Shown piece by piece: positions 49,394-51,690 of a DNA stretch of 64,000 nt. Source of the DNA: Microlunatus kandeliicorticis (GTDB lineage Bacteria > Actinomycetota > Actinomycetes > Propionibacteriales > Propionibacteriaceae); the NCBI RefSeq assembly GCF_014137855.1, contig NZ_JACGWT010000001.1, positions 310,001-374,000 of the forward strand. The letters are read 5' to 3'. Under the pieces are notes generated by a model that saw nothing but the letters and a program-made list of their open reading frames with translations, did no database searches and was not told where the DNA came from. Both the position numbers and the translations under genes were made by a program. Positions within the stretch are counted from its first letter, which is position 1. Every line of letters begins with the position of its first letter.

Positions 49394-50653
49394 TCACTTG
49401 TCGAGGTCGCCGACGACGTAACCGAGCGAGGCCAGCGCGGCCTCCAGGTCGACCACCCGGCACCCCGGCAGCACCGCCTCCCAGGCGGCCACGTTGTTGA
49501 AGCTGGCCGTCCGCAGCTTGAGCCGCCACGGCGTCCGCTCCCCGCGCGAGACCAGGTAGACCCCGGACCTGCCGAGCGGCGCCTCGGTGCACAGGTAGCC
49601 GTCGCCGTCGGGCAGCCGCAGGTTCTTGCCGGCGTCGACGCGGACCGGGCCCGGGAGGCCGCTGAGCCGCTCCGCACAGGCGGTGACCAGGGCTGCGCTG
49701 ACCGCGAGCTCGGCAGCCAGCACCGCGAACCGTCGCCCCGCCCCGCCCGGGGGACCGGGCAGGGCCGCCGCCGGGAAGGTGCTCAGCACGTCGGCCAGCT
49801 CGGCGTAGGCCAGGTAGGGCGCCTCGATCCGCAGGTCGGCCACGCAGCCGGCCGCGCGGGCTGCAGGCCCGCTGACCCCGAAGGCGGCGACCAGGTCGGG
49901 CCCGAGTGCGGCGGTGGGGCCGTCGGACGGCGCCGACGACCCGGCCGGTCCCTCGCCGTCGAGCAGGGTGATCGCCGCGTCGGTGTCGAGCCGGTCCAGC
50001 AGCCGGGCGGCCAGGGCGGGCACCCCGTCCAGCCGGGCGGTCTCGGCCCGCAGCCACCCGGGGTCGGGATCGACGGCCAGGCCACCGACCTGGGTGACCA
50101 TCGGGTGCACGCGGTTGCCGGTGAGCCCGGCCAAACCCACCCGCAGCCGCTCGCGGAGCCCGCGGACCTCGACAGCCAGGCCGGGGTCGAGCCGGTCGGT
50201 GAGCCAACCGAGGAAACCGAGGTGGCTGGCCACCCGGGTGTGCTCGGCCAGCAGGGTGCGGGCCCAGGTCGCCCGCGCCGGCACCTCGAGACCCAGCTGC
50301 TGCTCGCAGAGCAGCGCCACCGCGAGCTCGCCGGCGAACGGCGCGTGCCAGTCGTGCCGGTCGGCGAGCATGATCACCTGGCGGTAGTCGCGGACCTCGA
50401 ACAGCTTCTCCGCGCCGCGGTGGAGGGCGCCGATCCGCACCTCGGCGCGCACCACCCGCTCGGCCGTCGGGTCGGTGGCGCCGTCGGTCCAGACCCGCAG
50501 CTCGAGCAGTCCGGCCCGACTCGGGTGGTCCTCGCCGAGGTCGAGCAGGATCGTGCCGTCGGGGACGGGGGCGGACGCGTCCGGGAGCAGCCCGGCGGCC
50601 GGCGACCCGACCAGCACCCGGAGCTCGCGGCCGGTGCCGCCGGCCGGGCTCAC
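49394..50653 (-). CDS. Orphan NuoD-like protein (complex I 49-kDa subunit relative)
   Basis: 419 residues from a GTG overlapping the methyltransferase stop by 4 bp. It resembles NuoD/NDUFS2: HPSRAGLLEL at 43-52, LHRGAEKLFEVRDYRQ at 77-92, DRHDW at 98-102, VPARATWARTLLAEHTRVAS and SHLGFLGWL. By eye alignment the arginine of the LHRG motif, which NDUFAF7 methylates in NDUFS2, is kept (Arg79). The quinone-site His of the HPxxHG motif appears as Ala47 and the quinone-site Tyr of DRxDY as Trp102. No other nuo gene is near. It is probably not a working quinone-reducing subunit; it may be an assembly factor or a subunit of another hydrogenase-like complex. Confidence 0.65.
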   Translation of the reverse strand: MSPAGGTGRELRVLVGSPAAGLLPDASAPVPDGTILLDLGEDHPSRAGLLELRVWTDGATDPTAERVVRAEVRIGALHRGAEKLFEVRDYRQVIMLADRHDWHAPFAGELAVALLCEQQLGLEVPARATWARTLLAEHTRVASHLGFLGWLTDRLDPGLAVEVRGLRERLRVGLAGLTGNRVHPMVTQVGGLAVDPDPGWLRAETARLDGVPALAARLLDRLDTDAAITLLDGEGPAGSSAPSDGPTAALGPDLVAAFGVSGPAARAAGCVADLRIEAPYLAYAELADVLSTFPAAALPGPPGGAGRRFAVLAAELAVSAALVTACAERLSGLPGPVRVDAGKNLRLPDGDGYLCTEAPLGRSGVYLVSRGERTPWRLKLRTASFNNVAAWEAVLPGCRVVDLEAALASLGYVVGDLDK

Positions 50654-51690
50654 ACGCCCACCCGATCCCGCGCCTGCAGCAGCCACCGGTACCGGCCGAA
50701 CCCGGTGGGGGCGGTCAGCGCCGCGGCGGCGCTCCGGGCGGCGAGCCGCGCCAACGGTCGCTGCGGCAGCGCGTCCGGTCCGGCCCAGCGGTGCAGCGCC
50801 TCGCGCTGGCTGAGGTCGGCCAGCGTGGTCGCCCCGGCCGCTTCGCCCGCGGCCCGGACCGCGTCGACCGCCACGTCGCAGGTGAGGTTGCGGCGACCGT
50901 CCGGCACCGCGGCGACCCGGTGGCCGCCGGCGTAGGCCCGCAGGCTGCCGTCGGCCGGTCGGGTGTCGCGGGTGTGTCCGTAGTCGACGGCCAGCGCCAC
51001 CCCGCCGCACCGGGACAGCAGCCGGATCGCGTCCGCCCAGGCCCGGTCCCGGCTCGTTCCGACCTCGACCCGCCGCGAGCCGGCGGCCGAGCGGTCCGGG
51101 GCCGGCCACCAGCGCTCGGCCCAGGCGAGCTCGTCGGGCGCGGCCGGCTCGAGCAGCAGCTCGGTGCCGGTCGGCCCGACCCCGACCCGCCGCCAGCCGT
51201 CCGGGTCGAGCACGGTGACCGGCAGCTCGTCGAGCCACTCGTGGGCGATCAGCAGTGTCGGCGGGGCGGCGGGACCGAACAACGCCGGCACCCGACCCTG
51301 TTCCCAGCCCGAACCAGGCGACCCGGTGCCGGCGTCGCGCCAGCGGTCGACCACCCAGCCGATCCCCGGACCGTCGACCCCGGCCCCGGCGACCCGCGTC
51401 GGTGCGAGCCGGAGGTCGACCCCGAGGCACGACAGCCCCGGGGACGACCGGGCCAGGGCGGTCAGCAGCTCGCCGTCGCCGGCGCCGAGCTCGACCACCC
51501 GGGCGATGCGTGGGTGTTCGTCGAGCAGGGCGGCGACCGCCGCGGCGACCTGCGGCCCGGTGGCCGGCGCGGTCCGGAACCCCTCGGCGACGCCGTGAGC
51601 CCGCCAGTAGCCGGCGGGTCCGGTGGCGGCGCGCTCCCACATCTCGGCCCACGGCCCCGCGACCGGCGTCGAGCAGGCGTGGGAGAGCAT
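50650..51690 (-). CDS. MidA/NDUFAF7-family SAM-dependent protein arginine methyltransferase
   Basis: 346 residues, ATG with AGGAG 4 bases upstream. SAM-binding motif I is VVELGAGDGELLTALARSS, followed by LLIAHEWLDELPVTVL and GVALAVDYGHTRDTRPADGSL, a strong mark of the family. Its human member NDUFAF7 dimethylates an arginine in complex I subunit NDUFS2 (the NuoD equivalent). Here the gene overlaps a NuoD-like gene by 4 bp (GTGA), so the two products are made together and the downstream protein is the likely target. The gene diverges from nadB. Confidence 0.8.
   Translation of the reverse strand: MLSHACSTPVAGPWAEMWERAATGPAGYWRAHGVAEGFRTAPATGPQVAAAVAALLDEHPRIARVVELGAGDGELLTALARSSPGLSCLGVDLRLAPTRVAGAGVDGPGIGWVVDRWRDAGTGSPGSGWEQGRVPALFGPAAPPTLLIAHEWLDELPVTVLDPDGWRRVGVGPTGTELLLEPAAPDELAWAERWWPAPDRSAAGSRRVEVGTSRDRAWADAIRLLSRCGGVALAVDYGHTRDTRPADGSLRAYAGGHRVAAVPDGRRNLTCDVAVDAVRAAGEAAGATTLADLSQREALHRWAGPDALPQRPLARLAARSAAAALTAPTGFGRYRWLLQARDRVGV

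Follow-up and report, generated by a model that had tools for sequence, protein, structure and literature searches.

Two lines of earlier work describe the systems closest to the locus analyzed here. In Streptomyces, a second set of complex I genes (nuoA2, nuoB2, nuoD2, and nuoH2 to nuoN2) that is devoid of N-module genes is contiguous except for nuoD2 (PMC3765725). Separately, the MidA-family methyltransferase NDUFAF7 acts on Arg85 of the complex I subunit NDUFS2, a NuoD homologue with this Arg beside the cluster N2 (PMC3829151, PMC3750175); the NuoD of E. coli also has this Arg, but in unmethylated form (PMC3750175). N2 requires R121 of NDUFS2, and the residues at this place are exchanged between species: T. 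thermophilus has a Thr at the R121 position and an Arg of NuoB fills the same space, and the NuoB of Yarrowia has a Thr there (PMC8042128).

The window, i.e., the whole 64,000-nucleotide stretch of the Microlunatus kandeliicorticis genome analyzed here (NZ_JACGWT010000001.1, positions 310,001 to 374,000), encodes on its minus strand a MidA/NDUFAF7-type methyltransferase whose gene overlaps that of a NuoD-like protein, just as the first-pass annotation had described. The features of this pair, in window coordinates, are:

49394..50653, minus strand: NuoD-like gene (hereinafter NuoD2), 419 amino acids including the GTG start (PF00346, structure alignment, and tree)
50650..51690, minus strand: gene for the MidA/NDUFAF7-type methyltransferase (hereinafter MidA), 346 amino acids (PF02636)
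50650..50653, minus strand: GTGA overlap between the MidA stop codon TGA and the NuoD-like start codon GTG (sequence)
50513..50515, minus strand: codon GCC for Ala47, at the position of the quinone-site His of the HPxxHG motif (alignments)
50417..50419, minus strand: codon CGC for Arg79, at the position of bovine Arg85 and Yarrowia R121 (alignments; PMC3750175, PMC8042128)
50348..50350, minus strand: codon TGG for Trp102, at the position of the quinone-site Tyr (alignments)

The MidA gene ends in GTG TGA and the NuoD-like frame opens at the GTG of the GTGA, giving an overlap of 4 bases; the residue numbers Ala47, Arg79, and Trp102 count the initiator, without which they are 46, 78, and 101. 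Sequence searches recovered PF00346 in NuoD2 at 111 bits (cut-off 24) and PF02636 in MidA at 51 bits (cut-off 23.3), the latter gene being the sole PF02636 match in its genome. At 183 bits, NuoD2 falls under the cut-off of 360 for the NCBIfam NuoD equivalog PRK06075, which the main NuoD of the same genome (see below) matches at 560 bits. Nevertheless, the predicted fold of NuoD2 is intact (model pLDDT 91.7), with the best PDB matches of the model in Foldseek searches being complex I D/49-kDa chains; the 50 matches listed were all complex I entries, with TM scores of 0.70–0.78 over the query. In an alignment of 12 MidA rows, two motif glycines, which we take to be SAM-binding, and the E-LD and DY-H columns are invariant. 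Inspection by eye of three named loci revealed no conserved gene between MidA and NuoD2.

A search of the genome for a separate nuo operon with an intact NuoD, as the first-pass annotation had advised, recovered one about 58 kb from the NuoD-like gene, whose NuoD (the main NuoD) retains both the quinone-site His and Tyr; no PF00346 gene beyond these two was detected in the genome. Pfam recognized NuoA, B, C, D, E, F, H, I, and L in this operon, while K, M, and N were assigned from order and sequence, and two long frames at the places expected of G and J had no Pfam match, probably reflecting the choice of a wrong frame.

To place the key residues, the columns of Ala47, Arg79, and Trp102 were set by alignment to solved structures and to the genome's own main NuoD. 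This structure-guided alignment upheld what had been read by eye: Arg79 occupies the methylated position, Ala47 and Trp102 occupy the positions of the quinone-site His and Tyr, respectively, and the spacing between Arg79 and the Tyr position is indeed 23 residues (102 − 79). Residue counts were taken from one alignment of 134 sequences, where 'class' and 'family' (f1) denote those to which the window belongs. The quinone-site His is found in the main NuoDs of the class (30/30, own included), in NuoDs from loci outside the class (50/50), and in the displaced NuoD2s of other class families (33/33), but in none of the 21 NuoD2s of the family, where our copy has an Ala and its 20 relatives an Ala (12), Thr (6), or Pro (2). 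An early impression that the His loss was unique to the copy in the window was accordingly overturned, with all 20 relatives showing the same. The quinone-site Tyr is likewise found in all 30 main NuoDs; however, a Trp takes its place in 39 of the 50 loci outside the class (L043–L096; Tyr in the remaining 11), in all 33 NuoD2s of other class families, and in all 20 family relatives. The annotation was right that both quinone-site residues are gone from NuoD2, but these are two separate events: the Trp is wide across the lineage and the His loss was seen only in the family. On these sequences, the Tyr-to-Trp change appears to be the older one, common to a wide lineage, and the His loss appears family-specific among the sequences compared. 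The 60 loci L037–L096 had no match to NuoE in any case and to NuoF only in L083.

The Arg79 position behaves differently. It is an Arg in all 50 sequences from outside the class, in all 33 NuoD2s of other class families, and in all 20 family relatives, and the surrounding HRG-E-K region is nearly unchanged in the family alignment; in the main NuoDs of the class, own included, it is a Thr in 30 of 30, a feature that had gone unnoticed in the first reading. In a tree built with a quick method without bootstrap, the NuoD2s of the family grouped as a single clade (SH-aLRT 100) whose stem has a length of 1.16, a branch with full support set the main NuoDs apart, and the sequences of a same-order family (f82) grouped with the named Kribbella. 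This grouping identifies the order as Propionibacteriales; the family is probably Propionibacteriaceae.

The distribution of NuoB across the class points to a second complex to which NuoD2 belongs. Among the class genomes given to the profile search, at least two NuoBs were found in 21 of the 22 with a NuoD-like gene, while 13 of the 16 without one had one NuoB or none (more in G038, G143, and G249). The single exception among the former, G260 (loci L039 and L212), has NuoD2, one NuoB situated in a second cluster, and no main NuoD match; this genome may therefore encode no complex I other than the second one. None of nine second-NuoB regions from other class members had a match to D, E, or F. 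Six of the nine (L210, L211, L212, L214, L216, and L219) read A, B, C, H, I, K, L, M, N, with NuoA lying 7 kb off the rest of the cluster in L214; the region in L218 includes B, C, H, I, K, and L, among others, and that in L213 only B, C, and H in the stretch fetched. In the ninth (L215, from G060 of another family; NuoD2 locus L038), a weak A is followed by B, C, and I close together, with no H or K–N within 9 kb after them.

The residues facing N2 distinguish the two complexes. At the position in NuoB known to exchange with the R121 site, the main NuoB has an Arg in all 20 fetched cases and in our genome, whereas NuoB2 has a Thr in 14/14 family cases, our own, 8/9 class cases, and 44/45 cases outside the class. 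Five loci outside the class (L054, L056, L069, L086, and L090) gave no NuoB for this count, and the two exceptions (L062 and L215) read P and look misplaced, with L215 reading SGTV elsewhere in the analysis. The swap separates a main complex with NuoD-Thr and NuoB-Arg from a second one with NuoD2-Arg and NuoB2-Thr. NuoD2 carries the Arg at the N2 position, with a Thr in its partner NuoB: it fits NuoB2, whereas pairing with the main NuoB would put two Args at one place. We regard this matching as the strongest evidence for the identity of NuoD2 as a subunit of the second complex and, equally, as the strongest argument against the suggestion of the first-pass annotation that NuoD2 is perhaps an assembly decoy, and against reading it as a pseudo-substrate that regulates MidA or the main complex I. 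The adjacency of NuoD2 to the genome's only PF02636 gene and the absence of both quinone-site residues would suit a decoy; however, the Thr of the main NuoDs leaves MidA without such a target in the main complex, G260 keeps NuoD2 alongside its one NuoB with no main NuoD match, and NuoD2 is inherited together with the NuoB that it matches (see below). We therefore judge a decoy role very improbable, and the annotation's other suggestion, that NuoD2 belongs to a complex distinct from the main complex I, is the one that the data favor.

That co-inheritance emerged from a search of 196 genomes of the order, of which the family accounts for 75. In the latter, NuoD2 is present in 41 genomes (40 with full-length matches at E below 1e-50, and G571, where it matched as two pieces in one open frame), broken or partial in 3 (G416, G464, and G542), and absent from 31. 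A short type of NuoB2 (37–63 bits, with the profile matched from about position 20–43 on) accompanies it in 41/41 cases and occurs in 2/3 of the genomes with broken or partial copies and in 0/31 of those without NuoD2; six of these 31 (G467, G522, G524, G538, G549, and G569) carry an additional NuoB that is full-length and of a different type. Three genera (g1, g248, and g252) each include genomes with and without NuoD2, implying three or more joint losses or gains of NuoD2 and NuoB2.

In all 14 fetched family neighborhoods, as in our genome, NuoB2 is followed by NuoC2 and NuoI2. Our own trio (contig 1, about 464.7–466.2 kb; B, C, and 4Fe-4S domains by Pfam) lies on the same contig as the nuo operon, about 30 kb beyond it; its NuoI2 has two CxxCxxCxxxC motifs, and all four N2 Cys residues are kept in the family NuoB2s (15 sequences, read by eye). 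An AAA ATPase gene (L217:10229-11437) comes after our trio and was unmatched in the 14 other family neighborhoods. A gene that we name KorA from its sequence (2-oxoacid:ferredoxin oxidoreductase) was found in 13 of the 14 family neighborhoods and our own, as well as in three of the nine class regions. We considered it as a marker of the quartet formed by the trio and NuoD2 but rejected it: it also sits beside the nuo operon in 7/7 relatives without NuoD2, where the trio is absent from the stretches fetched beside that operon. Its retention without the trio makes KorA weak evidence for the identity of the electron donor.

Taking these observations together, we consider it likely that this NuoD-like gene is nuoD2: its product would be the D subunit, encoded apart from the other genes, of a second complex I without NuoE, NuoF, and NuoG. 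In this family, that complex would have been reduced to a B2-C2-D2-I2 quartet with a predicted N6a/N6b/N2 relay. Alternatively, NuoD2 could be a leftover of the second complex I that is in decay and no longer functions, as the three broken or partial copies among 75 genomes, its absence from 31, and its faster evolution might suggest: the dN/dS of our NuoD2 against that of L239 is 0.50, which with the long stem of the family clade points to acceleration in the family. Yet dN/dS values of 0.17–0.29 in four family pairs (against 0.07–0.09 in two pairs of other families; MidA, 0.32 in one pair, with the L241 row left out) indicate that NuoD2 is still under purifying selection in the family, and its unfailing retention with NuoB2, the Arg in 21/21 copies, and the confidently predicted intact fold speak against decay, making a remnant quite improbable.

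Other parts of complex I that serve quinone are also missing in the family. The PRQAD segment, which we take to line the quinone site, is found in NuoB2 in 9/9 class regions but in 0/15 family cases (L264 and L269 being judged from neighborhood sequences). Judged from NuoH copy number, the membrane arm of the second complex also appears to be gone from most of the family: NuoH is single in 38 of the 41 NuoD2 genomes, with more only in our own, G583, and G571. Extra NuoHs also occur in 4 of the 31 genomes without NuoD2 (G522, G524, G538, and G563), and therefore do not follow NuoD2. The L215 region retains both PRQAD and the quinone-site His, showing that the loss of neighboring membrane genes need not accompany that of the quinone site; such a loss of neighboring genes may thus have occurred outside the family too, with the quinone residues kept.

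This pattern bears on a further alternative, in which the quartet would dock on the main membrane arm as a substitute peripheral arm, borrowing its NuoH, to form a ferredoxin-driven pump under some conditions. As 38 of 41 NuoD2 genomes have only the main NuoH, the quartet could gain a membrane partner only by borrowing one; our trio's location near the nuo operon is in keeping with this, and L215, with its intact quinone site but no H or K–N nearby, leaves room for docking. However, the family has lost parts that should line the quinone site, namely the NuoD His (0/21) and the NuoB PRQAD (0/15), and we view docking as rather unlikely.

At a distance of about 180 kb, our own genome additionally carries a second, divergent cluster containing NuoH (L099:6380-14404; contig 1, about 536.4–544.4 kb), with NuoA, H, J, K, and L-type genes by Pfam and M and N by eye, that could still partner the NuoD2 complex. 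Between its A and H lies a Cys-poor ORF (L099:12978-14054) with an HDMGDMDMGD repeat that by eye resembles a NuoB/NuoD remnant and in which Pfam recognized nothing. As a general partner of NuoD2 we rejected the cluster at 536–544 kb, as extra NuoHs occur in only 3/41 NuoD2 genomes. In M. kandeliicorticis itself, the quartet and this A-H-J-K-L-M-N cluster might constitute a full non-quinone complex, for which the cluster would supply the membrane subunits, with the genome offering no further PF00346 gene; against this stand the scarcity of extra NuoHs with NuoD2 and their presence in genomes without it, as well as the Cys-free ORF that the cluster has of its own, and we deem such a complex improbable.

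We next turn to MidA, which tracks NuoD2 in one direction. In a draw across the phylum, MidA accompanies NuoD2 in 27/27 class genomes, always within 7 kb (26 detected by PF02636 and the 27th, in G260, by a custom MidA profile), and is found in 0/33 of the class genomes listed without NuoD2, 36 unmatched genomes lying outside that listing. Within the order, counting MidA from 225 bits up in f1 and from 100 bits up in f2, f82, and f83, it was recovered in 13 of 41 f1 genomes with NuoD2 against 0/34 without an intact copy, in 8/8 f2 genomes with NuoD2 (with partial matches of 100–114 bits in 3/37 without: G407, G434, and G475), and in 6/6 each with NuoD2 in f82 and f83. Below these thresholds, both searches also listed many weak short matches (<31 bits) over the SAM-binding region, including in our genome. 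The flanks of 71 of 80 named loci contain MidA; it was not found in those of the other nine, although in four of these (L121, L133, L152, and L161) each flank exceeds 8 kb. Outside the class, MidA occurs in 70 of 103 genomes with full-length NuoD-like matches, within 25 kb in 44 of the 70; only part of the NuoDs of these 103 were read for the Arg, and 14 further MidA genomes lay outside the NuoD list used for this co-occurrence count.

Thus, in the class MidA seems nearly always to need a second NuoD, but not the reverse, as would be expected of an enzyme and its substrate. Of the dedicated enzyme–substrate pair proposed in the first-pass annotation, the tie of MidA to NuoD2 is supported, but an obligatory pairing is not: 28 of the 41 family genomes with NuoD2 have no detected MidA, so that methylation cannot be essential there, and the Arg is kept in all eight of these 28 whose NuoD2 was aligned.

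Based on these observations, a scheme for the quartet can be put forward. Electrons would enter at I2, most likely from a ferredoxin reduced, for example, by a nearby 2-oxoacid:ferredoxin oxidoreductase, and would pass through N6a and N6b to N2 in B2, over which D2 would hold Arg79. Where present, MidA would dimethylate Arg79 during assembly, helping B2 and D2 to join and rendering N2 stable; in the Streptomyces-like and other families, this arrangement would serve a second complex I that is devoid of the N-module. For the quartet, a quinone bound in the usual pocket is probably not the acceptor, given the loss of the His, the Tyr, the PRQAD loop, and nearly all NuoH2s. In its full form, our proposal is a tentative one, which we hold to be possible rather than probable: the family would have made the quinone module into a free-standing, quinone-independent B2-C2-D2-I2 complex without a membrane arm, its N2 matured in some genera by a dedicated MidA, that conveys electrons from ferredoxin or 2-oxoacid oxidation to another acceptor. 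A soluble quartet would mean that a module of complex I can work by itself.

Several of these elements are already known, namely the N-module-less complex I, the displaced nuoD2 of Streptomyces, the action of MidA on Arg85, and the Arg/Thr switch between species; in the open-licence literature, we found no report of a link between MidA and NuoD2, of the swap between two complexes, or of the quartet. Like the system in the window's family, the Streptomyces nuoD2 system is a second complex I without N-module genes in which nuoD2 stands apart, and the part of its description available to us does not mention MidA (PMC3765725). In the Streptomyces-like genomes that we fetched, the membrane genes, the quinone-site His, and the NuoB PRQAD are kept, whereas all these are lost in the family of the window. 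Another described system resembles ours in having NuoA–D and H–N without E, F, and G, with an electron donor that its authors give as not known, but differs in being encoded in one operon with the membrane arm (PMC11238625). Compared to these, NuoD2 of the family would represent a natural separation of two jobs of NuoD: the holding of N2, for which the Arg is kept and matched to NuoB2, and the holding of the quinone, for which the His, the Tyr, the NuoB loop, and NuoH are lost. Finally, in the described NDUFAF7/MidA systems, as here, a MidA-family enzyme is coupled to a NuoD homologue with an Arg beside N2, but there the substrate belongs to the main complex I (PMC3829151, PMC3750175), whereas here it is the second NuoD that has the Arg, with a Thr in the main one. 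Hence, while the role of Arg methylation in mitochondria is hard to part from the assembly of the main complex I, bacteria with MidA tied to one of two NuoD copies should allow that role to be tested without touching the main complex.
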